Positions 17,656 through 58,594 of a stretch of DNA of 64,000 nucleotides are shown here, in pieces. The notes under the pieces are model-generated. The model searched no databases and had not been told where the DNA came from. It saw only the letters and a program-made list of their open reading frames with translations. The stretch's first letter is position 1, and each line of letters begins with the position of its first letter. The stretch lies in NCBI GenBank assembly GCA_030141605.1, contig JAQGDQ010000068.1, positions 310,001-374,000 of the forward strand. The letters are read 5' to 3'. Position numbers and translations under genes: made by a program. The stretch comes from Tubiluchus corallicola. Taxonomy: Eukaryota > Priapulida > Priapulimorpha > Priapulimorphida > Tubiluchidae.

Positions 17656-17717
<62 letters not shown>

Positions 17718-21318: not shown

Positions 21319-24300
21319 ATGAATGTTTTAATAACCACCACGATTTTTGTGTTACTGGTACAGCTGGCGACATCTAGTGATTGGCGAATGAAACGTCAAG
21401 CTACCCAAAATCTAAAAAGCTTGCCGCAGAGTGCATTAGATGGTTAGTACCTGTATTACAATTGATTATCAATTAATAACATTTTTAATTGTCACTATTG
21501 AACAACAGCTGCCATACTTGCAGATGATTTTTTTTGAACTTCTGAAACGCTTCGGATGGATCACTCTACATCATCAGCCTGTTTTAGAAAATTAAGTGAA
21601 CTGTACTAAGAGTACTCTTGTACAATTCACTTATTTTTAAAACAGGCTAATGATGTACAGTTAGTACAGTTCACTTATTTTTTAGAACGGGATGATGATG
21701 TACAGTCGATGTTTATTAACCAATAGTTCAATAAATATCCAATTTGTCATTAATAATAAAAGTTGCTTTGTGATTATTAATTACTAATGTCTGTAACTTC
21801 GTTATATTAACTCTGGCTGTTACTTAGTTCTACGATTGGTGGGATACACCATCAACCTCCGGAAAAGTTTCTCTAAACTGGTTTGTTTTATTTCATTGAA
21901 TTTAAGTTTTGTGAAGTGGCCTTAATAACCCGTAGAAGCATCTTGGTCAACAAAAAATTGCAAATGTTGACATTTATTATTTTTAAAGCCAAGTATACGA
22001 ACAGAATAATTTGTTGTAATTCATTGTTACTATCTAAATATAATGTTTTGGCAATTTAAATAAATTCCTGTTGAACTAAATTCAAAAAAGTGTCAGTGTG
22101 CTGATAAAGTCATTATGGTAAAACCAGAAAATAGATTAAAAACCAAAATGAAACCAGAAATAAGAATAAAAACCAAACGTTTTATTTTGGTACAGGAATT
22201 TCCAGAGCCGGCACAACTTACCTGAAGAAGTTGTATTTGGCGAAATACAAGAGCCTGAAAAATCAAAGGGATGCTGCTTTGGTTGAAAAAGATAAATGTG
22301 TGGAAAAGGCCAAACAAGTAAAAAAGAACTAATATAGCATGCTTTGACACCGCTTAATTTAAAAACTGTCATGGTTAATCCTTTTCGTTGGGTGGGCAAT
22401 TGTTTGATTTTAAAATTGATTTCCTTTTTTAAATGAAGTTCACAATTTGTAGTAAAACAGTGCTGTTTTGGGATCAGCAAAAGTTATCGATAACGATAAC
22501 AACTTCCTTTTTCGAGACTGAAAATGACATTTTACTCATACAATTTTGCCCTCACGGGCCTCATTAAAAAGTAAATAGTTGGCAATTGGATATATTGCCA
22601 AACACTGCTAATACTGACAGAACATTATGAATAAAAATGGTAGAGTGCAAAATTGCATAGGATTAATCAGCAAAATGACTAACATTATATAACAAACACT
22701 GACACCTAGCTTGCATATGCATAACTAAACAAGACTTTCTAATGTAGTATTTTTGTTCATTTGGCTGGTATAGTTCAATTCTTATTAATAATTCATTTTT
22801 ATTATTCTCTAGTTTAATCGAGTTCTCCTTAATTGTTTTATCAGTGTTGTGTAGTCGAAATCGCTTTCAAAAACAATTCGTGCTTTTTTTTGTTTACAGT
22901 TGAAGCCCATGAAGCCAGCATTTTTAGGTCAAATAGGTGAATTACTTATTTTGATGCTTGAAAGTCAAAATGCTGCCGTTTTGTAAGGAACGCAAAACAA
23001 ATGAGTTCAACCTCATTTGTTTCTCTTCACAACTTGATAAGCATTAGTTGTCAAAAACTATAGCCACGTCATTTTTATTGTCAGATCAAAGAAGAACTAA
23101 ACACAAGAAATAAAGCAAAGCTGGAAAACATTTGTGCTCCATGTGTAAAAGAAAAGTGTAAAGCATTTAGCAGAGAATGTGGTAAGTATACTTGTATTGC
23201 AATATTCACCTTGGTTTCAAGAACTATAAAAAATTTACTGACACGATTCTTTTAATAGGGAAATAACATCATAAGCCAAGTGTAATATCGGATATAAATA
23301 GTCATTTTAAAAGTAAAAGTCTTCTGAAAATGTGAAGAAAACAATGCGTACTAAAGCGTCATCGGTATATTATGTAACTCACATAAGGGTCGCAGATTTT
23401 CGGTGGGTTTTTTGGTTTTCCATATATTTACAAAGGTACGGAAGTAGTTTTCTGAATATCATCATCTTGCTTCTGCCATTCAGTTTAAGATGCCAACAAT
23501 TATAAAGCCATAGAAAAATTAGATGAATATGTACCAGCTGAACACTCACTTCATCTAATTAACCTTTAACTCGACTTTATTTCAACTTGATTAATCACGG
23601 CTTCTGTAACCGGATGTTGCATTTTCTCACAACAATCCTTAGATTCTTATAACATACTCATCTTACCCATGTTGTTACATTTATAATAAAAATTTTTTCT
23701 AAAACCATACTGACTAGTTTTGGGTTGGTGTTCATCTTAGTTACACTTCAAGCAACTGCACAGACGAAAAACTAAACTTTATTTGTAAACTGAAATAATC
23801 AAATTATTCATTCATTTTGATCATTAATTGCAGCAACAGCAAAGCTGGCAACGACTGAGCCAACATGCAGTCAAATCACGTCTCTCGCTGATCTGTCAGA
23901 TGAAGAAAAGAAGAAACAGTCAGTGCAACTTTGCTCGTACTACGTCCGTGAATGTGATCCTAAAAGAGAGAAGTTTTTCTCTACTGAATGCTTGGCACAT
24001 GTAAAGAGCAAATGTACAGCTAAAGCAAAAGATTGTGGTAAGTCGTCGTTTGTACTAATTGAAAACTGCAAAACATCTGCCTGTTACAAACTGTTTCACA
24101 CAAAAATTGTGCTCACTTGGCAATTTCTATGAAACAACTTTAGTTTGGGTAAATTCAGTAAAATTCGGTCAACGTTTTATGAATGACGGGTAGTAAAATG
24201 ATTCTTTTTAATGGTCTGATCGGGTTTTGTCTAGCGCAAGTTGCTGTAAGCAGGATGACCTTGGACGTTAGTCAGAGCTGGGACCGGTTATTTTTTATCG

Positions 24301-27300
24301 GTTAACCGTTCTCTGATTAACCGATTAATCAGATCTAAGTAACATCGGAGGCGCTCTGTAATTTGCCGACTAGATCATTGGAAAACCAAATAAACATATG
24401 CAAACATATCAAGTGAAACTTTAGAAGAATATGTTCAAATAAGAATGAAACTTTTATACGTAGAAAGTCTACATAGAAAGTGAGAAGTCTCTGTTTGTAA
24501 GAATGCCAAGCGTTGTTTTGTTGAAATAAGCGCAACACTTTCCTACATAGAAATGAAAAGTCTCTACAGTAAAGATGTAGTGAAGGTTCAAATTTTTTAT
24601 CATTTATAATTTTTTGTATAAAAATCGGTTAACCGTACTGCTCAAAGCACATTTAACAAAAATCCGTATGATACGAGCTGTTGCTGATAGATTTTGTCTC
24701 TTGTATAACAAATATTGGAATACCAAGTTCTATGTTAATCTGTTCGGTGATTTTTCTTGTTCATCGTCTCTGCAATATAACTTGTAAGTCGACACTATGT
24801 CTCTTGTATAACAAATATTGGAATACCAAGTTCTATGTTAATCTGTTCGGCGATTTTTCTTGTTCAGGGTCTCTGCAATATAACTTGTAAGTCGACACTA
24901 TGTCTCTTGTATAACAAATATTGGAATACCAAGTTCTATGTTAATCTGTTCGGCGATTTTTCTTGTTCAGGGTCTCTGCAATATAACTTGCAAGTCGACA
25001 CCTATTTGTGTTGTGTTATGTTGTACCTGGATGAGCTATTGGTTTGATATTCGGTAAAATAATTAAGTAATCAAGTTGTCAAATATCATTAATCTATTTT
25101 TTAATTCGGTTTTTAATTTTATTTTGTGTAGCTCCTAGTGGCTTTTGCGGAACACCCATCGTTGGTTATACATGTCCTTTGGTAGAACTAGGCATTGAAG
25201 AACTAAAGGACGAAGTTTTGGATCCAGCCAGTGACTTTTTCACATCTTTAGGAGGTATCATCAATCATTTTCTGTAATAAAGGTGTTCTGGTAGAAACAG
25301 TATGTTAACATCCGCACTGTCAGAATGTTTAAAACCAAGTTATATGGTAGGAAAATTTGTTTTGTAAAAATAATATTTTTACGTCATTATGAGTCATAAA
25401 GTTGATTGATGTCCAGGTTCATCATGAAAAACAATTAATAACTATTCAAAACATTCGACCTGATGAATCTGCGTGTCTTGAATGGGCGTACCTTTCACAA
25501 CACACAGTGCAAGTTAGAAGAGAATTAAACCTGTAATTTACCTACTGGGGCACTGACTTTCTATGAAAAAAACACCAGACAACATCGTGGTTATTGATTT
25601 ACTTCAGATACTTGTGGCTATGTACTAAATCTATGTCTTTTCTCTTTTTCTGTGTGGCAGAATTAGGATGCTGAAGTTAAAGATTTTTGCTCTTTACGTC
25701 AATTTTAAATATCTTCAAATGATTGTTCATCACTCACAATGATGACATCCTGGGCGAGCGTCTGTGTTATAATTAAGATTGATTGCTTTACATGTTATTT
25801 TTCTATTTTTACTGTTTATTTCGACCAGTTTTGTACTTTTGTTTAAACAATTAAAGTGATTCAGGTTATAGGGGACATTGTTAGTAGAAATTGACAATGT
25901 CAGTACTGCCTCAGAAAACGAGCCTTTTCACAGTTTCGTTGTGCGCACGCGCAGTTGCTGTAGGTCAAAGATTAAGGGTAGCACAGCAACGTGTCTTAAA
26001 AACAACAGTCACGTGACATGTGGGTAAGGCAAAGCCGTCTGCTGCATCTGTTCAGTAACTTTACTTTGCTTAATTATGCATTCGTTTGTGCATAGAGTGA
26101 TTTACCAGCAGGATCTTGCTTGGAAACCAGAAAAATGAAGTAAGGTTCTAGCTAGCTGTTAAAACTATTACAACAGCATGGGCTGCGAGGCGCGTTGTCA
26201 AGTGTACACAAACGCGTTGTCTGGTACACTTAAAGGACAAGAAAAGGGTACCTGAAGTAGATTTCGTAAAAACCGCCTTGAAGAATTATTTCGTGCATAT
26301 ATCGTACTCGCGTTAAAATGAATTTTTGTTTGTTTTCATCTTAAATCTCCCGCAATACTGTTACGACGGTGCCATTACATAAGGTCACTTACGCAAACGT
26401 GAATCTAGCGTAATCTAGAGCAAACGTAAATGTTAATATATTAAATATCAATTTCCCACACGGGAAATAAAAATGATCATAGAACCATGTACGCGAGAAG
26501 AATAGGAAACTTATAGGCAAAACCCAATAAATGTTAAATTATATCCCAAAAAACTTTCCATGCAAATCTATATTACTTAGCATTTCGCTTACCTTCTGGA
26601 AAGACCTATGTAACTAGAAATAATAAATTAAAATGATCGTTGCTACTGGTAAAATATCGCTGGCTCTTCCTACAGGGTGCTCTGGTTATTTTTTCAAACA
26701 ACTCAGTGGTATCTAACCTTCTTTCAAACGACCTACCATCAAAATGGCTAGCTTAACGGTCATCGCCGGAGTTTAAACTTACACGCTTTATACAGCCTTG
26801 CCGCCGACGCCAAATCCTGCATGCAAAAAGGCAGTATGTAAATGGTATAAAATTTCGAGACGAATTTTTAAGCTTTATCTAAGTGGGCGGCTTTCTTGTG
26901 CTTTAACCATTCACGTTTTCACGTTCATCATCAGTCGCTGGAACTGTGAAAAGGCATATTGACCTCTCATTATAACAATTTGGTACCCATAGAATATGTG
27001 TTTACGTTCTTCTTGAAGCAAGTGAGATTTCTTAGTTAGCAGGCTTAGATAAACTAATTTGATAAAAAATTGTTGCAGGATCTGTTGTGAGTGCTTTCGG
27101 TACAGAAGCGGTACAGTTTTTTGACAGCACTATTGGCGATTTCTTAACTGGAGATGTTGCAGACTTTTTTGAGAAAGACGTCTTGGAAAACATCCTTCCA
27201 GACGAAGTTACAAACTTTTTCTCAGAAGAACTGGCGAACACATTAGATGTTTTTGATTTTGGGCTAGATTTTGACCTTGGTGGTAATTAAGTGCACTATC

Positions 27301-27983
27301 ACAGTCTCCGAAAACATAAAATAGTACATATCAAAGGGTCACGCTTTTTAATTTCAAAATGCACCTAATAAGATAATGTTACCATAACTATTGTCGTCGG
27401 TTTATTAAGTTTTTTTAAATTCATAACTGAAAACTTACTAGGAAAAGTTAGATTCGGTTTACTATCTTAGTATAAAACATTGTTCTCTTTCTCAGCGAGT
27501 GATACTCATTCAGTGATTTGTGATTGGCAAGTTCGTTTAAGCTCTTCAATAGCCATAAACGTGGTCCTAACTTTAGGATATCCTGTTTCATTCTGCCTGC
27601 GCTGACGCTATTACAATGTTCGCTATTCGTTCCTAAGCAAAATTGTCGTTCAAATTTTGCAGGCATTGGCGACTTATTCGGGAATCTTGGAGATATCCTT
27701 GTTGATATTGACTTCGGCGATATTCTGGGTGTTTTGAATCTGGGTAATCTTGGTGACATAGACTTTAGCGATCTTAACCCATTCAAACGTAAACGCAGAG
27801 CGGCAGCAGCACCACCAACATGTACAGACATTGAAGTCAAAGAAACTAGGGAGAAAGCATGTAAGTTCTAGCTATCATCTGGGACTAAGATCTTTATATA
27901 TATCTCCCCCTCTCTATCTCTCTCTCTCTCTCTCTCTCACTCTATCTCTCTCACTCTCACTCACTCACTCTCGCTCGCTCTTG

Positions 27984-28014
<31 letters not shown>

Positions 28015-29860
28015 TCTCTCACTGTCTCTCTCTTTCATTCTCCCTCTCTGTCAATCACTCTCTCACTCTCTCGCTCTCTCTTTCTTATTCTCTCTCTTTC
28101 TCTCTCTCTCACTCTCTCACACTATAGCTCTCACTCTCCCACTCTCTCTCTCTCTCTTGCCCTCTCTTTTCTTTCTCTTTCTCTTTCTCTCTTTGTCTCT
28201 TTCTTTCCCTCTTTTTTTTCTCTCTCTCTCACTCACTCTTTGTTCCCGAGATTCCGAGATGAAAATAATTGCCACACGCAAATTGTTTGAATTTTGAATC
28301 ATGTTTGAATTTTTACTTTATTTCAAATATAGGTTTGTACTACACTAACGAGTGCCCATGCGAACAGGAGAAACTTCAGTTCGATGTAAAACAAGGTATT
28401 TTGGTGAAACAACAGTTACTATCCGATTTTGTGTCATTTACTTATAAGTCCTAGAGTTTATGCAATTCGGTTATGGATAAGGTCTTTATTTATGAAATTT
28501 ATTTGTCAATACAGCTGTAACTACTTATTACCCAATAACAATCTTGACAGCATTAGAGCAAGTTTAACCTGCCCCCATGCAGGAAAAATGAACCCTTCTT
28601 GACTTTTTTGTATTTCTTCAATAATATCTTTACAGTCTGCCCTGAGTACGTTGTGGAAAAGGAGAAATTCAGCCAAATTTACAAAGATAACGCTGCACTT
28701 TTTGGAATAAGACGCAGTAATTTGAAAGTGGAATTTTCTTCGGTAAGATTTATATCAACATAATTCTATACACATGTACATGCAATGTATAATTTGTTTG
28801 TTCTAAAAATTTGACTCTATTATAGGATTTTTTGTGTTATCTCTCACATATGGAATTTCATCGGCTATTTTATGTATTTCAATTGTTTATTCTCCGTGAA
28901 TTCATCGTTAAAATGTTAATAACTCAAAATACACGAGCTCTCTTTTGGGCTAATATCCAGCTCGAGTTTTTTTGCGTAATTGCAAGCGAGAATGGCGTTG
29001 TGAGCCGTTTTTCAGAAAGAAACATAGCTGGGCTGCTTGAGACGATTCAAAAACTAAAAATGGGTTTGTGACACGTCGACTGTAAGCTTGCAGTTAGAGT
29101 AGTTGAATGTATTACTTGACTAGTACAAGTCTGGGTCATTTGAGGGTCACAGATCAAACAAGGGTCTCACAGAGAAGCAGAATACCTATAATTTAAAACT
29201 TAAATTTTGAATTTCTTGCTTCGGAAGAAACCATGTTGTCGTTTTATACCATCATTTTCACTTGGTTTTAGACGAATATCTTTGACTATGTTTGACTATG
29301 GCTGCATAATAATTACAAGCGCTGAGTGATGTGTACCAAAACTGTAAATAGACGTTATCAAAAGTGTAACAACGTTCGTATCATTGACAAAAATATCAAA
29401 ATAAAATCGTATAATTTGTATTATGGGCAAAAACATCAAAACAAAATCAATAAATGGTATACACGCAGATCAAGTAAGAAATTTCTATTTCTGCTGCCAT
29501 TTGGCAGAAAACATTGTCGTAGTGGTCAGTTGGCACAATATTTCGCAATGTGACCTTGCAGATATCACTTTATTATTATTTACAGGGCATAAAATACTTG
29601 CTATTTGCATGAAGTAGTACCCGCCTAGCTTGTAAATTGATTAGTTTGAATCCTACATCAAAACACTTAATTTTTTTCGACTACTTTAGATTCAAGTGGA
29701 TACTGCCACAGAAATCAGGGATAAAATCTACACGGGCTACTTTGAATTTACTGTAGCTGGGAAGCCGTACACGCTTACACATGAAATAGGCGTCACATCC
29801 CAAACCATGGAAGTGACACTACCTGGAATTCTGGAAGCTGCTATACAGATGGCAATTTAA
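21319..29860 (+). CDS. Gene A: secreted clusterin-like preproprotein, 10 coding exons
   Basis: Exons: 21319-21442, 22196-22317, 23085-23181, 23834-24037, 25132-25254, 27079-27282, 27663-27860, 28333-28395, 28636-28742, 29690-29860, giving 470 residues. Order: signal peptide (about 1-20), furin site RMKR (near 23-26), Lys/Glu-rich coiled coil, Cys at 76, 99, 102, 107, 114 (core CAPCVKEKC), a six-Cys exon-4 module, CGTPIVGYTC, an acidic Phe/Gly/Asp region, furin site KRKRR (333-337), Cys at 345, 358, 365, 367, 380, and a C-terminus with GYFEFTVAGKPYTL. Human clusterin (449 residues) has the same order with core CKPCLKQTC, five Cys per chain and internal furin cleavage, which is the basis of the call. 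I infer a two-chain, disulfide-linked secreted protein with a 133-residue C-terminal chain. No N-glycosylation sequon is present, unlike vertebrate clusterin. Gene structure is firm; family assignment is pattern-based. Confidence 0.82.
21567..21703. repeat. Inverted repeat plus partial third copy, intron 1
   Basis: Left arm 21567-21605 and right arm 21620-21657 (gtacaattcactta to gatgta) are imperfect reverse complements around a short loop. A third copy in the right-arm sense follows at 21664-21703. It looks like a small palindromic element in the first coding intron of gene A. Confidence 0.7.
24273..24650. mobile_element. Degenerate hAT-like MITE, intron 4 of gene A
   Basis: The left end cagagctgggaccggttatt resembles the terminal sequence of many hAT-type elements and is followed by cggttaaccg words. 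An inverted cggttaaccgt near 24628 marks the decayed right side. No transposase. The right boundary is uncertain. Confidence 0.4.
24695..25003. repeat. Three tandem copies of a 103-bp unit
   Basis: Units start at tgtctcttgtataacaaata at 24695, 24798 and 24901, in intron 4 of gene A. Copies 2 and 3 are nearly identical; copy 1 has a few differences (ttcatcgtct for ttcagggtct). Confidence 0.95.
27905..28245. repeat. CT-rich low-complexity tract, intron 7 of gene A
   Basis: Runs of tctctc/tcactc start about 45 bases after the donor of exon 7. Gene B has a similar tract at the same place (39558-39800); gene C does not. Confidence 0.95.
29393..29640 (+). repeat. Diverged repeat shared with 31385-31620
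   Basis: Collinear similarity with 31385-31620: aaaacatc..., then caagtaagaaatttctattt against caagtagaaaatttctcttt, ctgctg.catttggcagaaaa against ctgctggcacttagcagaaa, cagatatcacttt against caggtatcacttt. One copy lies in intron 9 of gene A and the other upstream of gene B. Confidence 0.55.
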
Positions 29861-29950
29861 AATGAGGACATGAATTTTACTAAATATATTCTAGTAGTTT
29901 TCCGTTTTATTTCAGTTGTTGTTGCTTGAAAATTCTGTAATTATTATGAC

Positions 29951-29956
29951 AATAAA
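29951..29956 (+). terminator. Poly(A) signal of gene A
   Basis: AATAAA 91 bases after the stop codon, the first such hexamer in the 3' flank. Confidence 0.7.
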
Positions 29957-29974
29957 AAGTTGATTAATTAATTT

Positions 29975-31820: not shown

Positions 31821-31824
31821 TGGC

Positions 31825-31952
31825 TGACGTCAGTTGTAAGATCTGTATATAAGACAGAACGTTCTTACTTCTTTACTTTGTTGACGACTTCTTGGAATTT
31901 CTTACAGAGTTTCCAGTTTCAAAAAAGTGTTGCTGTACTGAAGTGCTTAGAG
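31825..31952 (+). promoter_or_regulatory. Gene B core promoter (CRE + TATA) and 5' UTR exon
   Basis: A perfect palindromic cAMP-response-type element TGACGTCA (31825-31832) sits just upstream of TATATAAG (31846-31853). A short non-coding exon probably starts near 31876 and ends at 31952 (gag|gtaatt). It would splice to 32294, nine bases before the ATG. The TATA box is strong; transcription factor use is inference. Confidence 0.6.
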
Positions 31953-32302
31953 GTAATTTTAATGGCATTTTGCTGCTATGTTATTTTACTGACGTTGTTA
32001 TTATAGACGTTATTAATCTCTTAAAATGACTGTTACTTTGGTCATAATTTTTGCGACGTACTTAGTTCCAATAATATAACCTAGTAATAATGCGAACTTT
32101 GAATTTTTAACGTCACACTTTAAAGATCGTGTATTTTGTGTCACTATTCTTTCAGAAATTTGTCACTGTCAAATCAGCGGTAGGCAATAACAGAGACCGA
32201 GATCAAAAGCTCCAGTAAAATTATATGACGAGTGAATTATTAAGGCAAGAATTGACCAGCACTCAATCAACAGTTTTGTTTATATCATTACAGGTTGCAG
32301 AG

Positions 32303-35077
32303 ATGAAATTCTTAACGATAGCAATGTTGACCATCTTGATGATACATCTGGCTGCATCCGGTGGCCTGAGAAGAAGGCGTCAAACCACACAAAAATTAAA
32401 AGCCATGCCGCAAAAAGTATTAGATGGTAAGATAGATTGCATCGTATATTATTATTAATGTTATTGGCAAGTGTTATTAATATTATTTAACACAGTTAAA
32501 TTACTTGATTCCTTGGAAACCTCTACTCTGCCTACTATCGGTTTGTTCAAAATTTTCTTTACTTTCGACCAGGATCTGCCTAACGTCTGAACTTTTCTGA
32601 TCAATTCCAGATAAAAACGAGCGCACAGATAATCCAGTCGGATAACAAGTTTGAATTTTTATGCTAAATTACAGTAAACATTTTCAAAAATGTATATACA
32701 TTTCTGTAATCAGTGTGCATTGATTTCAACAGCATTCTTTTCTTTGTTTGTTTCGATTTGACAAGAAAAGTAGTTACGTTATAAATTTAACCTGATGTAG
32801 GTGACCTTGTGTATTTCCATTGTTTAATGAACAATAAACAAATTAATTAGTAATGGAATGAATAAATAAAAATAAATAGTAGTGCAAGTATGGCAGTGAA
32901 ACTTAAATTTAAAGTTTAATTTGTTAAAAGTCCAACAACGAAATGTTTTTAAAACAGGACTCTCAAAGACTGGCACATCTTACCTGAAGAAATTGTATTT
33001 GGCGAAGTACAATGCTCTTAAGGACCAAAAACAGGCTACGTTGGCCGAAAAGGAAAAGTGTGTCGTGAAAGCAACCAAGGTAACGATTAATTTCATGCTT
33101 TGAATGCATAAAGATTCCATTTTATGCTATGATTGACTAAATAGTGGAATGTAAAAAGGGGTGATAACTATTGGTCCTAATCTAAACACTTTTTTAACTC
33201 CGCAAGTTTATTTTGGCCGGTCGGGTTTTACAAACAATGTTTCCAGTTGATATAATCACTGAGCTGGCTGTTGAAAAGGCTGAATTGAGGGCTCAGTGAG
33301 GTGCTCCCAATTATCAAAATAGGGCTCAACAGCTACCACACTGATGTAGAAGCGGGCCATCAGCTGTCACAGCAACCATAGTTTAGAAAGGCGGGGTTCA
33401 GTGTAGCATGAGTTCTGAAGTCTAGCCTGAAAGTAATGCAGTTAATGAAAAACATTAACATGAAAAAGCCAAAAATAAACAAAATGTAGTTAAACAGTGC
33501 TGGCGCCTTAAACCATCACGCCACAGTATGCTCACCACTACTGTAATAACTCAAACTGAACGCCACAGCCAACAAGTATAGTATGACCCTTTAGTATGAC
33601 AATTGTTTAAAAAACTCTTTCATCCCAATAGTTAGCGTTTTATATTGCTGACCGAGTTGTTATAAATAAGAACAATATTTAACAACAAAATAAGTCACTA
33701 GCAGAAATAGACTGGCGAAGTTAATTTAAAGATGAACTAAATATTCGCCGGGAGAGAAACGTCAAAACCTATATAACAAAGCCTTGAAAACGGTGTAATT
33801 TCCTTTTATATTATTATTAGGTGAAAGAAGAAGTGAAAGCAAGAAACGAAGCAAAACGGGACAATGTTTGCGTTCCGTGTGTAAAACAAAAATGCAAAGC
33901 GTTCAGCACAGAATGTGGTAAGTAACATAGTAAAATACATCTTTACTTACGATATCACAATTTTTACACGAAACAGAGATTGTTAGTTTAAAGTCATGTA
34001 AGCTATAAAACCGCGCTTTGTAGCTGTTATTTCGTCATATAAAAGAGCGCTACTCTGAAATGGGTTTTTGTTGCTTGACGATGCTGTTATTTTCACTAAA
34101 GTTGCTGTGATTTTCACCAGCATACTGACTTTCTGTATGTCCTACGCTTTTGCTTTTTAGTTATAGAGATTCTAGTTTTTAGCCAATCGGTCGAGATGGG
34201 ATGAAGTACGAAAGACTAGAATACTACAACCACTACATCTAATGTCGACAGAGGGACATAATATTTTTAAATGTCATTTCGCAGCTTCAGCGAGCTATGA
34301 CTAGTAACTCTTAACTGTCAGTCCTTTTGGTTTAAGAAATCTAGTATCCAAACTAAGAATCACGGTTGAGGTTGCATTCGACACGTTTCACGTTTTGTAA
34401 ACAGTGAAAAAAATGCTGAAAATATAATAATAAATGTAGTGTCAAACGGCTTAAGTGAATAACTGACGAACAAACTATATAATTCATATCTACAGTGTTA
34501 AATTGTCCATTGTTTGATTAGGTGCAGAAATGTGTAGAGCCTCCATGAACAGGCGTGTCAAGTATTGTCTGATATTTCATCATTTAGGCCAATTTATTTA
34601 TTTCATATTTGAATCAGCTATTTTTATTTTGACCCATGTTAAATTTTGATTTCGTTGTTTCTTTTGCAGCAATAGCAAAACTACCAACTAGTGAGCCAAC
34701 ATGTGATCAGATCAAAGCTCTCGCTGGCTTGTCTGAGGCAGAGAAGAAGAAACAGGCCGCGCAACTTTGCTCATACTATGTGCGTGAATGTGATGCCAGC
34801 AGAGAAAAGCTTCTCTCTGACGAATGCAAAGCACATGTGAAAAACAAGTGTGCATCTAAAGTAAAAAGTTGCGGTAAATCGTTTAGAATGTCTTGCTTAC
34901 TGGTACATTTATATAGAATAGATTACATTGTGTCTTGTGGTAACTTAATTAAATCGACAATACATTGTTGCCTATGTACTTGTTAATTCTCTTGCTATGT
35001 CACTGAATTGGCAGCAATGATCTAGAGATCCACCAAGGACCCAGTCAGCTCCGGAATTCAGAACCGACTCTCCCCCC

Positions 35078-35109
<32 letters not shown>

Positions 35110-41047: not shown

Positions 41048-41183
41048 GTCTAGAGGCGGGGAGCCATCTCTAAAAATGGTAGAATAAGAACTGCCATTGA
41101 AGTAACTTAGAGGGTGGAAATGTGGGATTACTTTTAGTTGTGACTTCTGATTGTTTTTTTAATGATTTTCAAACTTTAAAAAC

Positions 41184-41189
41184 AATAAA
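41184..41189 (+). terminator. Poly(A) signal of gene B
   Basis: AATAAA 137 bases after the stop codon. Confidence 0.65.
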
Positions 41190-46601: not shown

Positions 46602-47184
46602 GTAAGTAAATATACTTTGCCTGCTGTATTTTAAATATCACGAAGCTGTCATAATTGATTTTTAGATATTAATTATTTGGAAATCAGTATATAGATGTGG
46701 GCTTGCATGGTTGCGCGGTCTACAGTTTGTGTATTATATTATTTCCTCTTTGTTATCGATGAAACTTGACCCATGTGATAACATTCAGTGCTCTTATTAT
46801 TTTTTGTTGATATATTAACCGCTAGAAATAACAATAACTTTTGGGTTTAATCATTAATTGTTTTATTTTTTCTTGTGCTTAAGTACGATTTTGGACATTT
46901 AGGTTATACGAAATTACTTAATTAATATTACTTATTAGTAATAAAGAAGAAAACCTTAAAATTACAAAATAGAAAAGTATATAAATTGAGACTGTAGGCG
47001 TCGCGATACTTTTCGAATGGAGTGTCTTAACTTCTCGACTTCGTTAATATCCCAGTATCAAGCCCTGCACCAAAATCAGAAAATTGCGCACTTAGCAGGT
47101 GTTTTTAACCAAACTAATGCGATTATTTATGGGATAGCATGATTGCAGTGGATAATTTATTTATCACGCCGTTATATTAATTAG

Positions 47185-47420
47185 TCCCTTTTAAGACGCC
47201 AACACCAAAAATAAGGCCACAGTGCGGGCCCATTATTTATATTATACTTAGTAAGATATGCAGGGTCATTAATATTTAATGTAAAGGACTTACTGTGTCC
47301 CTTTAGTCCTTTTTAAGACGCCAACACCAAAAATAAGGCCACAGTGCGGGCCCATTATTTATATTATACTTAGTAAGATATGCAGGCTCGTTAATATTTA
47401 ATGTAAAGGACTTACTAACA
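47185..47420. repeat. 122-bp tandem duplication, 5' UTR intron of gene C
   Basis: Two copies sharing ttaagacgccaacaccaaaa (47191 and 47313) through tttaatgtaaaggacttact. They are almost identical, so the event is recent. Confidence 0.93.
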
Positions 47421-48042
47421 GGTACGCAAGTTTAGCTTAAGTTGTAGAGAACCACAACGTGATAGGTTAATCATAACTTTGATGAATGTGACGCATGCGC
47501 AGAAGCAACTAAGAATGCAGTCGGAAAAAATTAAAATTACTGAGTGACTATCAACAACTTCATCCAAATCTATCATTAGGAGTAGAAGAACTTACGCTGT
47601 CAGGTGCAGATAGAAGTGGGTGGAATACTCTGATAAAAGTTGATACCTCAATGCCTACAATAGGTGGAATGAGATTTTGAAGAAAAGAAAAGAAAAGAAA
47701 AGAGTGACTATAACTGAGCATCAAATTTGTTTTCTGCAGCAGTTTACAGCTGGCATCTTCAATTTGCTCTTTTAAGCAAATTACAAAAAAACTGCACGTA
47801 TTTACTGTCAATCTTGTAGAAAAGCGTTATAATAGTAATAGTATAAAGCGTTTCTAAAATGCTTTTATACAAATTTGTAGGTAAATTCGTACATATATTT
47901 TTATACAATATATAATATACATTTTGTGAATTCAGTTTGTTTTAGAATTTTATCATTGCTAATGCTAGACATGCATCTTTGGCTTATTCCTAACGAATAG
48001 CAAATTCATTTACAGGTATAGAGACACTGACATAAAAAGAAA

Positions 48043-51000
48043 ATGAAGATTTTTAAGACGGCGTTGGCGATTATTTTGATGATTCAACTAACAAGATGTG
48101 CCGTTTTGAGAAAGAAACGTCAGAACGCCCAGAATTTAAAGGACTTACCGCAGAACATACTTGATGGTAGGGCTAAGAAACTGATTTATAAAGGCTAATT
48201 TACTTCCGGGTTTGCGGTAACGCTACGTTTCTTCCGACACCATCCGCATGTACAAAACCAGCGGCAGCACTTTATTGAAAAAAGATACATTTGCTGCCAC
48301 TTTCTACCCACGTTTTATAGCTGCTGTCGCCAGATTAAGAGTGCTAATGGATGATTCGCATGACCATATGTACCTTTACCGCACATACCGCGTGCATGTA
48401 TATGAACCCTAATCCTTTTCTCTAAAAATCTTCTGTGGCTTTACCTAAAGAATTTATGAAAAGGATTATAACTGTTAATTGGTTTAACACTAGTCACAAG
48501 TGTTTGAACTATGCATAAAAATGCAAAACTATAATTAATCTTGGATTTTGATTTATCAGAAAGAATTATCGTTCTATTATATAGTATAGCTTTTATAGGC
48601 TATAAGTCGTCAAATAAAAAAAACTAGAAACATGGATTAATTTTCAGTGTGGAGCCTGAAATAAAATTATCTTGTTAATTAAATATTGTAACTGTTTTCA
48701 TGCTAGGTCTTTCCAGCGCTGGGACAACTTACCTCAAAAATCTTTATGCCGCCGAATACACAGTCCTCAAAGAACAAAAAGACGTTGTACTAGCTGAAGA
48801 GCAGAAGTGTTTAGAAAAGGCAGAACAGGTGAGTGAAGTTTATTAATCTTCAGTGTAAAAAAGTACAAAAATATAAATATTCATGGTAGCAACATATACC
48901 GGAAACTGTATTGTTGTTACAATTGCATCTTATACAATTGACACGATATCGTTTCCTGTGTCTTGGCACGATTGTTTCTATTTTTGTGCCTTTTTGCCAT
49001 GTTGTCGTGAATTTGAATGTCGTGATGATTATGAATGACATGATTTTTAATATTTAAACATTTGATTCTTTGGCGATCAAATTTGTTATTCCATTTTGTA
49101 CTTTTCTGCATCATTTCGGATACACTTTAAAACTGAAAAAGTATTTATGAAAGTTTGTTAAAGTTTTAATTCCTTTTGTTACACAAACATTTATCATCCA
49201 AAATGAAAAGAACGATTTATTTTAACGTCTTGTCGCAATATGTCGATAGCCATAATTGCTATTATTATAGGCGTAGGATACGTACAGGACACAGGAAGTG
49301 CATATGGGCTAAACTTGATTATTATGCGTTTCGAAAGGAAGAATTTAAGGTCTGGATAGCATAAAGTAGTTTATCCATCCTGTGGGGTTACATGACCAAG
49401 GTGTTATAATTTGGCTGTGACTAACTAATAAAGTTTTTTCCGCAGAGAATTTTCAGTAAAGATACGTAAGAGCACGCTAGTACAATACGCCAAAACAATA
49501 TCTCTGTTAGTCGAATCAATCCGACCACAATGAATGTTAGTCAATGAATACATCAATGTTGAAATGAAAAAGCCTTATACTTAACCTTTTATAATACATT
49601 ATATTTTTGGCAGACAGCCTAATACCTATAGCTACAGATGATACTTTTTTCAATTATAATTAATGTGTGAAGGGAATAAATGAATACTGTCCTTGGCATA
49701 TTTAAAGTAAGCCCTACGGCTTTTTTGGCACAAGCTCTTACAAACGACTAAATTTGATATAATCAATATTAGTTTTCCCAGTAACTGGTGAAAACGGCAG
49801 GTCTGACTCTACATTGAGACTAACTTTAGTGCGGACTAAATCTTTGTTTATTTATTTTTTAATTTTATTTATTGACACTAAAATTGTATAAAAGAAAGAA
49901 TCAGCAGACGCAAGCGCACTTATGCTGATGCTAAATAACGTAAAATTACGCACAAAAATTAAACCTCATTAAAAGGCTTCTAATACAATGTAACTGAATA
50001 GGAATTATATACAATATACAACACGTTTTATACAACAATACGGTTCAGAGATAACTAATTACGCCAATGACTATGTTACATGTTTCGGATAAAGTTGCCA
50101 TAAGGCAGTAGGTTAAAGTTAGCTAGTAGATTACTAAAAACTGAGAAACTAGTAGCTAGAACTAGAGTATTCCAAATGTTTACAACTCAGGCAACAAACG
50201 AAAATTTTGAGACGTTTAATCTCGAAAAAGACATAAGCAGTTTTGAAGTTGTGACCACGAGTATACTGGAAAAAATCGTCAAAATTTAAACCGTAATTAA
50301 ACTGACATCGTTGGAACAGCCTATGAGAACAAATATTTCTGGACCTTTACAATGCTGTCAATATGTAACATACAGTGCGGCGAACTACACTGATGAGCAG
50401 TTCTCTAACAAGGGACGCTCATAAACTTTATAAGCAGTCAATAGTGCATTTTTGTTTTTAGTGTACAAACACCGAAAAATCATATTTACCATACGAAATT
50501 CTTTAGAAACTATGGTTTTACAATGTGTCGAGAATTTCAAATCGGATAATAGTATATGACTAAACAACAGATTATATTTTCACGATATCCTGTAAACAAA
50601 TGATCATAGTTGATAGCTTAAATTTTCGTATAAGTTATATCAGACATTAATTTTTTGCTAGTTGAAAGAAGAACTTGAACAAAGAAATTCCGCCAAATTG
50701 GAAAAGGAATGCGTCCCTTGTGTGAAAGAAAAATGTACCGCTTTCAGCATAGATTGTGGTAAGTGCCATGAACTATAGATAAATTTTTGTTTTTTTTTCA
50801 GATGACTCTAGGTCTACTAGAACATTGAAAAGTATCTGTAGTTAGACCGCTGATGTTGTGCCTTTTCTGTCGTGTTAAAGTTTGTAGGATTGATTCAACT
50901 GTTTAAGGACTGATATTAAATCCTTACGTGTTTTCTTATAGCACTAGACAAATTGCCTGTCACTGAACCCACCTGTGATGAATTAGATGCTGCAGCTGAG

Positions 51001-54000
51001 CTTACTAACGAGGAAGAGAAAAATGCTCAATTAGGCTTCCTTTGCGGATTCTACAGATTCGACTGCAAATCTGGTGAGGAGTTCTCAGAAGCTTGCACGC
51101 AGGATGTAGTAACCGCTTGCAAGGCTAGATTGCGATAATGTGGTGAGTTTCAAAATTATGACATCAAGTAACGCCACTTGATAAGGCTTTATTCTTCAGT
51201 TTTGAGACTGTCTTGCTTGCTTAAAACCGTTTTTTCTGTTAATTGGGTAACTGTAAAGGATTTAACTAACAAAGTGCAACTAATTCGTTGAAAAAAACAA
51301 AACGAAACGAGGCTGTATTCATTAGATAAGTTATTCTATAATTTGGAACCTGCAATTTGGAATAATGAGTTCTGGGCTTTCGAAAGAAAGTTCTGGTCAT
51401 TTGAAAAAGATCCTTTAAGGTCCGAGTATTAAATTTATAGGCTTCTATAGCTGTTTGTCTTAATTTACGTAAAACGAGCTTGGGGCATTTCACTGAAAAT
51501 AACAACCTATTGTAATCAGCTTTGTAGTCGTTAAGAACGAAACCTATAGATCTTTCTTGTATTAAAGCCCCGTAATGTGCGTTTTACCTACCAAATGCCA
51601 AATGGGATAACAGTAATGACATGGCGCAATAAAAGTTTGGTATGCACATTTTGGTTTCACGATTTAGGTATCTGGATAGTCTTTTTTAGAACATTTAGTT
51701 GACGACTGATCCTGCTACACACTTCAGTTACTTAGTTATTATACCTCAATTAGTTTGCTGCTCATCTAAGTGCCCAGAAGCTTGATGTCAGGTTTGCAAT
51801 CAACAGTTTCTTCGAATAAATTAAAACTGGTGATATTGGGTTACTAACACCATGGCTTAATATTAATTTGGATTAGTTTTCATGTAATTACTATTTAACC
51901 AATGTGAGATTTTGCAAGATTTCCGAGCTACTGGTTGTAGGCGCAGTTGTGCAGAGGGTGTTGTAATCAGTTTTATAGAATGCTTTTTCTATAAAAAGCA
52001 AAATGTCGTTAAAGAAGATGTTAAACAAAGAGGGACCTGAAATGGAACCTTGTGGGATGCCAAGACTAAGATTACATCAACTGTTAGTAATATCACCGAT
52101 TTTAGCAGTTTGTTGCCGTCCTCGGAGGTAACTAACAAGTAGCTTGGCACTATAACTTCTTCCACGCCATACGCTTTTAGCTTAGCAGTTAGAGCAAGCA
52201 AAGCAAGCTGATTACAAAGGCCAATTGGCATGGCACCTACAATATTTTTCCGATCGAAGGTGAGGTTCCAGTTTTCAACTAGCTTAAGTAAGCACTTTGG
52301 CAGCTGTATTTTCTCAGATATTTTTGAGAAGCGTGTAAGAATACCGATTGGTCTGTAATTGTTTACAACTAGGGGGTTGTCCTTTAACTAGTTGGAATGC
52401 TTCTGCAACTTTCGTGCTGAATCATACCATGTAAATAAATTAATAAACCACATCCGGTTGCAGTAAAACCTAGTGTGTTTTTTGTTTATTTGATCAGTAC
52501 GTCGACATTACGTCCTCTTGTAGATTATACAACGAAAAACATAATATTCACAATTTTGATCTAAGATTGTACATATTATACTTTTGATTATATATTCTTG
52601 AAGAGAACATAATGTCGAAATATTGATCAAATAAACAAAAAAAAAATAAACTAGATTTTACTGCGTCAAGCGTGGTTTATTTTGTTTACATGTTATATAA
52701 TTCGGGTGTTCTTTTTAAAGATAGATTTAGCAATTGCAAGGGCTCGGCAAAGCAACATTGCGTAATGCAGGCATAATCAGTGAGGGCAGACAAAACTTGA
52801 CTAAATTGATCGACTTTTAAGCTACCTGTAGCACTTTTTTATCAAAACAATAGTAACGGCTGCAGGATCATAATTATCATAACAACTGCAAACTCTGCCG
52901 CAGTGATTAGACCTTGTTTATGCTGGGAATGAACAACAGCTTGCTCACATTGTTCCCACATTTTGCAGCAACAGCAAAGTTACCGACCAGCCGGCCCACT
53001 TGCAGTCAAATCGAAGGTCTAGCAAAGTTATCAGAAGAGGAGAGGAAAACAAGAGTAGGAGAACTTTGTATGTATTACATTCGAGAATGTGATCCAAACA
53101 GGGAAGAATTCGCTTCCGAAGAATGCATTGCGCAAGTGAAATCCAAATGTGAAGCCAGGATAAATGAGTGTGGTAAGTGTATTACAATACAATGCAATAC
53201 AATACAATACAATACAATACAATACAACACAACACAATACAATACAATTTAATAAAATACAATACAACTTAATATAATAGAATACAATGCAACATAATAT
53301 AATACAATATACAAAGACAATAAACCATTTTAGTAATACAGTAACACAAGTGAGGATTTTCAAACCCAAGTTTGTTTTAACGGACTTTCGTGAATAAGAC
53401 CAATTATTTAATATCGATATTAGCAAGCGACAAAAAAATTAAATATATAAATAATTTCACATTTTTTCGATATATTTTTTGTTTTACGGCTTTTTAAACT
53501 TTTCATTTATGACTTTTTGTGTTTAATGTGTGATTTCGGGAATAGTGTATACATGTATTACATAGAAAATATCTGTCGATGACGCCATGTCAATTGCTCG
53601 CAAAACAAAGCACGTTAATTTCTATTTCACTCGTCTTGCCAACCCTTAATATTTAAATCCGAAATCTCAACGCAATGTTGCGCTAGAAAACATGATTTCT
53701 CACAAATTCCTAAAAAATTATTTGATGAATAAATGCTCTTCGTCAGCAAAAAGAGTGGCATTTTAGTTCCTGGATGACCAAAATCTGAAAAAGTTCAGAT
53801 ATAATTAATCTGAAGGTGACCAATTTCCATGCCTGTTAATAAAATTAATATATACTTCAGAGAATAATTCACATAGAATTAAGATTTGTGAAATATAAAG
53901 AAACCTTAAATTTAAAGAAAGTTAATATATAGCCTATGTAAGGCCAGCTACATCAAATTTTCAAAGATAAAGTGTTTTTCACTAACTTGAACTTTGTAAA

Positions 54001-56059
54001 ACTAATTAAATTCAAAGAATTTGTTAAAGTGGCCTTTTCTACACTTTGTTTCAGTTCCTGATCCAAGTGGTTTTTGCGGCACCCCTGTTATTGGCGTCAC
54101 CTGCGCTCTGGTAGAAAAGGGCATCGACGAATTGACGGACAAAGTTTTGGAACCAACAGGCGAGTTCTTCGTAAACGCTGCAGGTATTTAATCACCCAAG
54201 TTTATCAGAATTGATTTAATCATTACACTATTATACATTTTATTTCAAGCAAAATGTTCCATATACAAATATTTACATAATAACAGACAAAACTAAGATC
54301 AAATTGACCTAATAAAAATAATTACAAATTCACTAAAATGGCGCTGAAAAACTAATGTAAATTGAAATTTTGGAGATAAAAGTTATTTTCACAATTTGAA
54401 CATATTCAATTTATATACTACATCAGAATTCACAATATTAACAACATACGTGGTATTTGAGAACAGCAGTCTATTTCTAATGTTATATAAAAATTTTCTA
54501 CACATTGTAATAATCGGAGACGAGCTATAATCATATCGTAATTTAAAAAGCTTTCGTGTTCAATTATTATAAGCTATCCGCATAGAGCTTAATGTACCAG
54601 CACTATATTTATTCCATACTCTACTGTAGTAAAAATTAGAACAATAGCTCTTAAACAGCATCTTTTTAACGTCAAAAGAGCAATTTTAGAATTTTCTTAT
54701 TAAAGAATTGACACGTACGCAAAAAAGTTTCATCTAATTCTCAATATTAGCATTATCACTTAAATTAGAGTATATAATGTGTCCAAGATACTTTCCTTGA
54801 TGTTTAATAATTACAATCAAACTCATCTTTGTTAAAGTGGTTTTGGAGTTTGTGAATATGAACGCGTGTTCTTGGAATAGTAAAAGAATTAGAAAACACT
54901 CTTAAAGACTATGTTCAAGATGTTTTCAAGCGAACACCAAACTTTGTCTGAAATACGGAGAAGACCGAGAAGAAAGAAACAATGGTTTTTCAAAAAAACT
55001 TTGTATGAACCAGAATTATCATGTGTACTAATCTTGTTACCACTTTTTCCTATCTTTGCAGAAGATGTAGCAGATTTTTTTACCGACGATTTTGCCAACT
55101 TCTTTGCAAAAGATTTGGTGCGTTTCTTTGAGAAAGATGTCGTGCAATTCTTTGATCAAACGATCGGCGACTTTGTCACTGAGGATATTGGAAAGTTTTT
55201 CACAGAAGATGTCGCTGGTGTGCTGGGTGACATTGGTGACTTCTTCACCGAGGATGTGACAGACTTTTTTACAGAAGACGTAAAGAACGCATTCGAAGAC
55301 ATTGGTGATAAAATTGGAGGTGCATTTGAGGGTATGTTTTTGTTCACTAAAAACTTGTATATCATAATTTCACACAGAGTGACTGCAAAGATTTTGTCAA
55401 GTAATTTTCAATCAATTAGCGATTGTCGGTTGAATCGATGAATGAACAGATTGAGGAATGAATGGACGAACGAACTTTATTGACCTACCGAACTGCAATT
55501 TAATTATTTTTTCAACGTAAGTTCAAGTTAGTAAAAAAAAGATTTTTTCTTTAAAAGTTTGATCTGGGTGGACGTAGGCTATATGTAAACTGTGGTTTCT
55601 TTAAATTGACAAAGCGTAATTCTCTGTGAATTTATTAATCTTACTACATATTAATTTTACTATCCATATTTGGCAAACAGATATAATTACATCAAAATGG
55701 AATTTTTTGCCGACCGTTTACGAACAAACTGTTCATTTTCAAGGCATCTAAAACAAAGAAATTTACCAGAATTTAGAAACAACGTCGAAATAAAATTCAG
55801 CAGTTTGATAGCCAAAAGATATATGCTATAACATTATATATTGTTACAAGTTAAAAGTTTCATACCCATCAAGGTATGTAATCTGTAAGGTAAATTGTTA
55901 AATTATCTATATAATGTTATATCATATATCTTTTGGCTATATAACTACTAAATTGCATTTCGATGTTGTTTCTAAATTTTGGTAAATTTCTTTGTTTTAG
56001 ATGCCATGACAATGAACAGTTTGTTCGAAACTGGTTGGCAACAAATTATTTTGATGTGA

Positions 56060-56149
<90 letters not shown>

Positions 56150-58594
56150 TATTATTATTATTATTAATATTAATTTCATTACCAGGCATATACCTGAATT
56201 TGTACGCTTATGTTTGACTGACTTATGTCTGAATTTTTTTCAGATTTCGGTGATTTTTTCACTGACGGCCGAATCTTGGACTTTCTTGATAACAAAGTGC
56301 TTGGTCAACTTGAGGACTTTGGTGAAGACGCATTATCTGGCATTATAAACATTGGGGAAGACATTGGAGATATCTTTGGAGACATTGGCGGCGGCTTCGA
56401 GGACGCTTTCAAAGGCGTGATTGACTTCGGTGGAGACGTAGGTTCAGAAATCGGAGGTGCTTTTGGAGACTTCGGCGACACACTTGGTGATATTGGTAGT
56501 GACATTGGTGGAGCATTTGAGGATTTCGGCAAATCTATTGGAGGCATTTTTGGAAAACGCCGTCGTAGACAAGCTGCGGAGCCTCCAACTTGCGCCCAGA
56601 TTGAAAACGAAGATACAAGAAATAATGCCTGTGAGTTTTTTAATAATAATAAATTTCCTTGGAAATGCAAATAGTGAGTTACTTTAACCGTCAAGTTTGT
56701 ATATTAGAATGCTTTTCGTTGACTCCCGATTTTGGAGGAGAAATACTTTACTTATAAATGTAAAAATGTTAATTTGTTGTTTCCCTCCACCATTTGAACA
56801 GTATTTATTTTAAAACGTCAGCTAGTTTCAGGCTAATATATGCTCATTATCAGTTCACAAGTAAAAATAAATGAACATTTTGCTGCTTTGGACACTAGTT
56901 TTAGCGGCTAATGTTTACAATTCCCCAACTAGAAATTAGTTCGTGATGCGGATTAGAGTTAGGGTTAGGGTTAGGGTTAGGTTACAGTTAGGGTTAAGGT
57001 TTAGATTAGGGTATTTAAACTGTGTGGGGAATTGTAAACTCCTTCCGTTTTATTACACGTATGCATAAAAAATTTTTATGAGACCATTTAAAATCAGTAT
57101 AAATAGTTGGTCAAGTATTGCACGTTGTACGAGAAAGTGATCGTTTTGAAATAATTCCGCTGTTTTGTAGGTCGCCGTATCAACAACAAAATCGTATAAC
57201 AGTGACAGTTACTGTTGGAGTCGCTATGTAGCCGAGTTCTAGTTTTCACCAAGTTAGAATAATATCTCAAAGTTAAAAATGTCTTTCGTTTAATTTTCAG
57301 GCCTATACTTCACCAACGAATGTCCATGTCAGGCTGAAACATTGCAGTTTGATGCAGATGAAGGTATTTTACTTTTTGCACACCTAAATGTCACTGGCTG
57401 AACCATCCAACTTTAAATTGGTGTCAGAATTTTTTGCTCCAACTATTCTGTAGTTTAATGACCATGCATGTGTTTTATATACTAAATGAATCAAAAGGTA
57501 CTTTGTATTTTCATTTATTGCCACAACTTATCACATTAGAAAGTTCTAATAAATTCTACTGTATAATTCCATTATATAAATTCTAGTTTAATTTTGACTG
57601 CTTTAGTAACAAGCAATAATACATGGTATTAATACCATGTTCGCAAACTATCCTTAAACAATTAAATTCACTTTAAAGAATCGACACGTATATATTGTAT
57701 AAGCGTTGTAGGAATTGATAACTTCCTCTTTCAAACAATTCTTATTATTTCAGTTTGCCCTACCTACGCAGCAGAAAAAGAGAAATACAGGGAACTTTAC
57801 AACAATAACGCTGCACTCTTTGCAATAAAACCCGAAAACTTGATAGTGGAGTTTACTTCGGTAAGATTTACAAAGTTTCATAATTCTTTCATTCGTTCCC
57901 TCATTATTTCGCTCATTCTACATTCAATTGCTTCTTTGTTTGCAAAGTTTCGTAATTCGTTCGTTCTTTTGTTAAACGCTCATTTAATTACACTTTTGTC
58001 TTCTTATTGTCTGGTTAATCACTCGATTTTGTTTTTGTTTGCTCTTTCATTTGTTGATTTGTTGTTTCTTTCCTCTTTTCCTATTTCATGAAGCCTGTTT
58101 TATGAAGCCCATGTTGTTCATTCGGCAAACTATAATAATTTCCTGATTACTGCGATTATTTCGGCCATCACTGTGTGGAACTAGACTTCAGAGGCCCAAA
58201 CTGGCTGCTTTCTAACTGACATTTTTGCATCCTAATGTTTCTGAAGCTTTTGGCTTCACCAAGCCGCTTTTGATCAGTTTGTTTAAGTTCCCTATGTTTA
58301 AAATTGTTTTTTTGTGATCCTTGTTATGCATCGTAGTTTTAAAATCTAAAGCTTCTGCACTAGTTTTAATCGCATTTAATGATAATGAGAGTTGTAGTAT
58401 TTTCCTTGTTATTTTAGGCAAAGGTGGATCTTAACCAGAAGGATAAGGACAAGGACAATGTCTACATGGGCTACTTTTCGTTCACCGTAGCTGGCAAGCC
58501 ATACAGTATTGAGCATAGAATTGGGCTGTCTTCTGACACTCTGAAAGAGACATTGCCCGAAATACTCAAAACAGCGGTGGAAGTTGCTATTTAA
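48043..58594 (+). CDS. Gene C: secreted clusterin-like preproprotein with expanded acidic repeats
   Basis: Exons: 48043-48166, 48707-48828, 50662-50758, 52969-53172 (exon 4b), 54055-54183, 55062-55331, 56244-56630, 57301-57363, 57754-57860, 58418-58594, giving 559 residues. Phases match genes A and B throughout. Signal peptide is followed by furin site RKKR; first cluster core is CVPCVKEKC; exon 4b has six Cys; exon 5 carries SGFCGTPVIGVTC. Exons 6 (270 nt) and 7 (387 nt) are longer than in A and B, built from repeats of the DFFTEDV and DIGGAFEDFG types. The second furin site KRRRR ends at residue 424, leaving a 135-residue C-terminal chain with CLYFTNECPC and GYFSFTVAGKPYSI. A second exon-4 copy with a stop lies at 50942-51142 and is left out of this model. 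Gene C is the most diverged of the three. Clusterin-like identity rests on the same pattern evidence as for A. Confidence 0.8.
50942..51142 (+). pseudogene. Exon 4a of gene C: duplicate exon with in-frame TAA
   Basis: Homologous to exon 4 of all three genes: it opens with TEPTCDELDAAAEL and keeps Cys at five positions before the stop and the sixth right after. It has a good acceptor (ttttcttatag) and a perfect donor (g|gtgagt), the same 1-1 phase, and 201 nt length. Codon 66, next to the final Cys codon, is TAA. Inclusion would truncate the protein at about 180 residues. It is either a dead duplicate or a regulated poison/alternative exon. The intact copy 4b lies 1.8 kb downstream, with a LINE fragment between. 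Confidence 0.8.
51940..52430 (-). mobile_element. LINE reverse transcriptase fragment, antisense in gene C
   Basis: On the minus strand, NNYRPIGILTRFSKISEKI is a fingers-region motif. It is followed by FDRKNIVGAM, LLALTAKLKAYGVEE and, in the next frame, LGIPQGSISGPSLFNIFFND, the highly characteristic G-x-PQGS...LFN block of non-LTR RTs. Frameshifted and truncated, between exons 4a and 4b. Confidence 0.8.
53184..53310. repeat. (AATAC)n pentanucleotide microsatellite
   Basis: Imperfect acaat/aatac repeats starting 15 bases after the donor of exon 4b in gene C. Confidence 0.95.
55691..56056. mobile_element. Palindromic MITE-like element, intron 6 of gene C
   Basis: Arms 55691-55840 and 55908-56056 are reverse complements over about 150 bp with a minority of mismatches (shared words gaacaaactgttca, gcatctaaaacaaagaaatt, gccaaaagatatatg). 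A 67-bp loop separates them. The outer ends read atcaaaat / attttgat. Confidence 0.85.
56058..56170. repeat. (ATT)n-(ATC)n microsatellite
   Basis: Pure att then atc trinucleotides, immediately beside the palindromic element. It produces long Leu/Ile/Met frames that are not genes. Confidence 0.95.
56913..57039. mobile_element. Small TIR element carrying TTAGGG telomere-like repeats
   Basis: Perfect 15-bp inverted ends gtttacaattcccca (56913-56927) and tggggaattgtaaac (57025-57039) bracket a core of gttagggttaggg repeats (56957-57012, partly degenerate). It lies in intron 7 of gene C. Confidence 0.7.

Follow-up and report, generated by a model that had tools for sequence, protein, structure and literature searches.

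A Tandem Array of Three Ten-Exon Genes Encoding Proteins of Clusterin-Like Architecture in Tubiluchus corallicola

Organization of the Gene Array

The window, i.e., the whole stretch of DNA that was analyzed, comprises 64 kb of a contig of the priapulid Tubiluchus corallicola (contig C541, 310001–374000) and has a GC content of 31–39% per 4-kb block. Pairwise comparison of its plus-strand stop-to-stop frames between 20000 and 60000 yields three collinear exon sets, from which the models of genes A, B, and C were spliced by hand. All three genes are arranged head-to-tail on the plus strand and have ten coding exons each. Gene A (21319–29860) encodes 470 amino acids in exons at 21319–21442, 22196–22317, 23085–23181, 23834–24037, 25132–25254, 27079–27282, 27663–27860, 28333–28395, 28636–28742, and 29690–29860. 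Gene B (32303–41047) encodes 473 amino acids in exons at 32303–32426, 32958–33079, 33821–33917, 34670–34873, 37538–37660, 38513–38713, 39333–39542, 40294–40356, 40482–40588, and 40877–41047. Gene C (48043–58594) is the longest of the three, with 559 amino acids encoded by exons at 48043–48166, 48707–48828, 50662–50758, 52969–53172, 54055–54183, 55062–55331, 56244–56630, 57301–57363, 57754–57860, and 58418–58594.

All 27 introns (nine in each model) are bounded by GT and AG, and the intron phases are 1,0,1,1,1,1,1,1,0 in every gene. An earlier note on this DNA had described three head-to-tail genes of ten exons, and both the coordinates and the lengths that it gave are correct. A CAG acceptor-like site lies 9–27 bases upstream of each ATG (21298–21300, 32291–32293, and 48013–48015 in A, B, and C, respectively). 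These sites are suggestive of a possible non-coding first exon or of spliced-leader trans-splicing, in which case the total exon count may exceed ten.

Proteins B and C are 64% and 54% identical to protein A, respectively. The Nei–Gojobori dN/dS ratios are 0.21 for A–B, 0.16 for A–C, and 0.11 for B–C, at dS values of 1.0, 2.0, and 2.8, of which those for A–C and B–C are close to saturation. The three genes look like genes under selection whose similarity is not due to chance, and on ratios of 0.11–0.21 the idea that they are nonfunctional copies was rejected.

The remainder of the window harbors several other elements. A major facilitator superfamily transporter frame lies upstream of the array on the minus strand (3310–4317), and a fragment of a reverse transcriptase (RVT_1, E = 4.1e-6, 27.1 bits; cut-off 29.6) is found between genes B and C at 44059–44280. 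Downstream, a BTB frame (61056–61406) is followed by a BACK-Kelch frame (62086–63645) with six Kelch_1 stretches; these are probably two exons of one BTB-BACK-Kelch gene. Repeats include a 103-bp unit present three times at 98% in intron 4 of gene A (24695–25001), a 31-bp unit repeated 10.5 times at 6305–6631, and a 122-bp unit repeated 1.9 times at 47181–47416. Near-identical frames occur twice, ~650 bp apart, at 16431–17750, with TTTC-type repeats between and after them.

Protein Anatomy and Cysteine Content

The order of elements is the same in proteins A–C: a hydrophobic leader, an R-x-K/R-R motif at residues 23–26, a charged stretch, a first cysteine cluster, the exon 4 and exon 5 cysteines, an acidic phenylalanine-rich segment, a central R-x-K/R-R motif, a second cysteine cluster, and the C-terminal end. 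Read by eye, the leader is a putative signal peptide. The basic motif that follows it is absent from the features listed in the earlier note.

The charged stretch and the first five-cysteine cluster (C76, C99, C102, C107, and C114 in A) are encoded by exons 2–3, at 22196–23181 in A, 32958–33917 in B, and 48707–50758 in C. Charged residues make up 35–41% of this stretch in A, B, C, and a fourth family member, D, described below. A coiled coil had been proposed for this region; a helical-periodicity test finds no heptad-like pattern in any of the four proteins, with 346–484 of 500 shuffles scoring as well.

Exon 4 (23834–24037 in A, 34670–34873 in B, and 52969–53172 in C) encodes a six-cysteine module spanning C126–C182 in A, and exon 5 (25132–25254, 37538–37660, and 54055–54183, respectively) encodes a cysteine pair, C188 and C197 in A. 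The central cleavage motif is RKRR in A and RRRR in both B and C, in agreement with the internal basic site proposed earlier. Counted from the exon table, RKRR occupies residues 334–337 of A (27788–27799, plus strand). The region comprising the cleavage motif and the second five-cysteine cluster (C345, C358, C365, C367, and C380 in A) extends over exons 7–9, at 27788–28742 in A, and begins at 39470 in B and 56558 in C. Exon 10 (29690–29857, 40877–41044, and 58418–58591) encodes the end of each protein.

In all four family proteins, two five-cysteine clusters flank an internal convertase-type site. The four proteins share the same gaps between the cysteines, 22-2-4-6 in cluster 1 and 12-6-1-12 in cluster 2. 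The core motifs quoted in the earlier note (CAPCVKEKC, CVPCVKQKC, and CVPCVKEKC) are present in the models, as is its C-terminal sequence. Its account of the clusters holds insofar as A, B, and C have one set of gaps in common; however, the first cysteine stands 22 residues ahead of the next, compared to 10 in human clusterin, and eight further cysteines between the clusters in exons 4 and 5 (six in D) went unlisted.

Cleavage at the central motif would separate an N chain of 311–398 amino acids from a C chain of 133–135 amino acids in A–C. The C chain has five cysteines in all four proteins, while the N chain has 13 in A, B, and C (excluding a cysteine in the leader of C) and 11 in D. Because five is an odd number, at least one disulfide must join the chains, provided that all cysteines are paired. 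The cysteines fall into sets of 5, 6, 2, and 5, for which the simplest closed scheme would connect the clusters by a five-rung ladder and place three bonds within exon 4 and one within exon 5. Protein D retains all six exon 4 cysteines and lacks both of those in exon 5, which fits closed subsets of this kind.

The Acidic Phenylalanine-Rich Segment

The acidic segment starts in exon 5, and most of it is encoded by exon 6 and the 5′ part of exon 7 (27079–27787 in A, 38513–39469 in B, and 55062–56557 in C). It was scored from the last N-chain cysteine to the central site or, in D, to the first basic site. Thus defined, it is 136, 139, 221, and 206 residues long in A, B, C, and D, respectively, with a net charge of −28, −36, −42, and −24. 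Phenylalanine makes up 12.5, 17.3, 15.4, and 16.5% of its residues, compared to 2.7–3.3% in the rest of the same proteins. Its hydrophobicity has a period that peaks at 3.9–4.0 residues, and a peak as strong occurs in only 7, 4, 0, and 0 of 300 shuffles of A, B, C, and D. This segment is also the part in which A and B differ most in length from C.

In human clusterin, furin cleavage creates two disordered, phenylalanine-biased tails that are required for chaperone action, as described in PMC12527946. Residues 204–238 of human clusterin, which belong to this chaperone tail region, contain 14.3% phenylalanine versus 4.3% elsewhere and carry a net charge of +4, where 25 of the 35 residues lie outside PDB 7zet. 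Thus, the phenylalanine bias and its position at the cleavage site agree between the two, whereas the charge is opposite, acidic in this family and basic in the human protein.

The Exon 4 Module and the C-Terminal End

When exon 4 is compared with a profile of cluster 2, all four proteins match, chiefly in the first half of the exon, and none of 1000 cysteine-preserving shuffles of each scores as well. Against a profile of cluster 1, the second half of exon 4 matches in A, B, and C (score reached by 0, 17, and 9 of 1000 shuffles, respectively) but not in D (455). On the basis of these matches, exon 4 appears to be an internal echo of both cysteine clusters. AlphaFold, given exon 4 of B with three other exons of the window as alignment rows, predicts three helices (pLDDT 82.2, pTM 0.62), and in this model the cysteines are placed such that they could pair in an antiparallel helical hairpin. 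A Foldseek search of the PDB with the model returns 14 matches at E ≤ 10, none of them at 0.001 and clusterin not among them.

For exon 10 of B, with A and C as rows, the prediction is a strand-strand-helix arrangement, although the five models range in pLDDT from 77.5 for the best to 59.1 for the worst. None of the 696 PDB matches of this model at E ≤ 10 reaches 0.001, and 7zet is not among the best 50 of the 696. Both pieces are too short for Foldseek to decide on a relationship with clusterin. According to PMC12527946, the AB domain of clusterin consists of a three-stranded sheet wrapped on helix α12 and stands at the protein end. The predicted exon 10 fold would be consistent with such a sheet and terminal helix.

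Intron 3 of gene C contains a second copy of exon 4, decayed or truncating, that is 201 nt long with splice-like ends (50942–51142, plus strand). An in-frame TAA (51136–51138) stands immediately 5′ of its last cysteine codon; upstream of that stop, the copy shares 38% identity with exon 4 of B. It may be a relic, or else an alternative exon that would truncate the product.

Family Members Elsewhere in the Genome

Searches of the organism's own genome covered the 343.5 Mb assembly in 2344 contigs. Protein B gives at least 33 matches, of which 30 are on C541, all within the array, two are in a single frame on contig C612, and one is on contig C1381. The C612 frame encodes the intronless paralog D (L021:1692–3548; 618 amino acids), which is 26–28% identical to A–C and is possibly an old retrocopy. 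D has two basic sites, RKKR at 386 and RLKR at 463, as well as six N-glycosylation motifs; none of these motifs is found in A, B, or C, while human clusterin has six. With D as the query, the genome yields D and five sites within the array. Searches of the assembly for COX1, which gave matches in eight prokaryote controls, and for mollusc haemocyanin and annelid linker families, which gave none in any control, returned nothing. The match on C1381 belongs to a fragment, E, with exon-9-like and exon-10-like pieces on opposite strands (L022: ~309–428, minus; 6651–6854, plus), which is either a broken copy or an assembly error.

Similarity to Clusterin

Human clusterin (PF01093; P10909, PDB 7zet) likewise has two five-cysteine clusters on either side of a convertase-type site. 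Its cysteine gaps are 10-2-4-7 and 9-6-2-7, such that the inner 2-4 of cluster 1 and the 6 of cluster 2 match those of this family. A and B are similar to it in length, and D shares its number of N-glycosylation motifs. There are several differences as well. A–C have eight more cysteines, a second basic site after the leader, and zero N-glycosylation motifs. Their C chains are also shorter than that of human clusterin, which comprises 222 residues (precursor residues 228–449 in PMC12527946), implying that the counterpart of helix α10 would be much shorter than in clusterin.

The family-level searches are negative. Neither the full-length proteins A, B, C, and D nor their N and C halves appear among the PF01093 matches at E ≤ 10 (cut-off 23.6 bits), in a search where the HMMER filters drop most weak matches; human clusterin, the positive control, scores 527.9 bits. 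Profiles of A–C, A–D, the N halves, and the C halves were compared with all PDB sequences, and neither 7zet nor any other clusterin is listed at E ≤ 10. A search of the organism's own genome with PF01093 and human clusterin finds no match, and control genomes gave none either. The family is not filed as clusterin, since none of its members matches the PF01093 model.

The matches that these searches did return were rejected. The best PDB profile matches, ribosomal L31 (0.017), Lmo1466 (0.82), and MAPKAPK2 (0.69), as well as ZorA (0.0026) on a low-complexity segment, are interpreted as compositional or due to chance. The Pfam matches of full-length A–D (DUF349, DUF3895, HTH_10, and DUF6175) are sub-threshold and are taken as chance, and those of the half proteins (DUF349, DncV_C, HTH_10, AMOP, and Cep192_D7) each occur in one of four members.

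Comparisons with human clusterin alone reveal a weak collinear signal. The N-half profile scores 8.9 bits, a value reached by 10 of 2000 cysteine-preserving and 5 of 2000 local shuffles, and the C-half profile scores 7.2 bits, reached by 4 and 3 of 2000, respectively. The composition-corrected score of the full profile is reached by 59 of 2000 shuffles that preserve the cysteines, 48 of 2000 local shuffles, and 10 of 2000 full shuffles, while the uncorrected score is reached by 0 of 2000 in each shuffle type. Shuffles without a HMMER score were counted as not reaching, and all of these figures overstate the case because the target was chosen after the earlier note had named clusterin. Taken singly against the human sequence, with E-values for four targets, A (0.00018) and C (0.0017) show some similarity and D (0.33) and B (0.45) show none. 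The HHalign probability against human clusterin is 25.1% for the whole protein, 32.5% for the N half, and 0.8% for the C half.

Against a profile of three clusterins (human CLU, mouse Clu, and CLUL1), the HHalign probability is 5.5%; 2 and 4 of 300 column shuffles attain the score of this alignment. In the second-best alignment, exon 4 (C155-x11-C167-x7-C175-x6-C182), not exon 3, is set on human cluster 1; on this account, exon 4, instead of cluster 1, could be the partner of cluster 2. CLUL1, in what we take to be its sequence, has five cysteines in each cluster with a C-x2-C-x4-C-x6-C arrangement in cluster 1, and it scores 608.7 bits against PF01093. The halves of the family are no better than shuffles against this presumed sequence, with 1223 and 609 of 2000 reaching the scores. 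The assignment to the clusterin family made in the earlier note is supported in part: the order of the architecture, the inner cluster spacing, and the phenylalanine bias at the cleavage site agree with it, but formal family similarity in PF01093 or the PDB does not.

Proposed Maturation and Alternative Explanations

It is hypothesized, with confidence evenly balanced, that the family consists of selected, secreted precursors that mature like clusterin into cut, disulfide-joined proteins with a chaperone or lipid role. The signal peptide would be removed first and, in A–C, a short pro-segment would then be cut off at the R-x-K/R-R of residues 23–26. A proprotein convertase would cut the central R-x-K/R-R; the genome, with seven matches to P_proprotein domains, encodes convertases with P domains. 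The resulting N and C chains would be held together by disulfides, with an antiparallel ladder between the two five-cysteine clusters being the most likely set of interchain bonds. Exon 4 may form an extra self-contained disulfide hairpin (C126–C182, C148–C175, and C155–C167), and exon 5 a small loop (C188–C197). The cut would free a long, acidic, phenylalanine-rich, and amphipathic tail that terminates the N chain and that, by analogy with the phenylalanine-rich tails of human clusterin, could hold non-native proteins or lipid. The odds are about level both for this mode of working, in which a cut, disulfide-joined protein exposes a sticky tail, and for the family being a deep homolog of clusterin.

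A further reading, put forward tentatively and with rather more doubt than confidence, is that this tandem family of an invertebrate preserves an ancient extracellular chaperone of two chains with a disulfide ladder. Its phenylalanine-rich, client-binding tail would have lengthened to an amphipathic segment of 136–221 residues and its disulfide core would have been part-duplicated, as exon 4, into a second self-contained ladder, such that clusterin would not be a vertebrate invention.

The foremost alternative, which falls a little short of an even chance, is that this is an unrelated secreted two-chain protein whose cysteine clusters and cleavage site came to resemble those of clusterin by convergence. 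The mechanism may still be similar in that case. The failure of every profile search at database scale, a similarity to CLUL1 that does not rise above shuffles, the eight extra cysteines, and the first gap of 22 residues are all consistent with convergence. However, several traits agree in their order, and both half scores against human clusterin are rarely reached by cysteine-preserving shuffles.

It is rather unlikely, yet still credible, that the proteins are acidic, phenylalanine- and aspartate-rich secreted components of matrix, mucus, or haemolymph. The central segment would then bind calcium, mineral, or lipid, or would self-assemble, with the clusters just holding the ends. Such a role would suit the large negative charge, the length, and the 3.9–4.0-residue period of the segment, as well as its variability in length between A or B and C. 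In contrast, the strict conservation of the clusters, the basic motifs, and much of the C-terminal part seems to go beyond the needs of a scaffold.

It is very improbable that an AMOP-type adhesion domain (PF03782), rather than a clusterin C chain, makes up the C chain: one of the four members aligns across most of its C chain (residues 8–120 of 133; E = 0.027, 15.1 bits) and a CPC motif is common to both, but the match lies under the 25-bit cut-off, is unlisted for the full-length proteins, and sets a five-cysteine chain against a domain that has eight cysteines.

Biological Significance

Clusterin is described as a conserved vertebrate glycoprotein in PMC12527946. No report of an invertebrate clusterin is among the papers listed in the literature searched, which included PMC12527946 and PMC7481362; this is a weak negative, as most subscription papers fall outside its scope. 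The comparison of the present family with clusterin is apt as one of architecture. Homology of the family would date a main extracellular chaperone, which is also an Alzheimer risk protein, to an earlier point in animal history and would provide natural variants with far longer acidic, phenylalanine-rich tails for testing how clients are held. If the resemblance is convergent, it would suggest two origins for the release of a sticky tail by cleavage of a disulfide-joined precursor.
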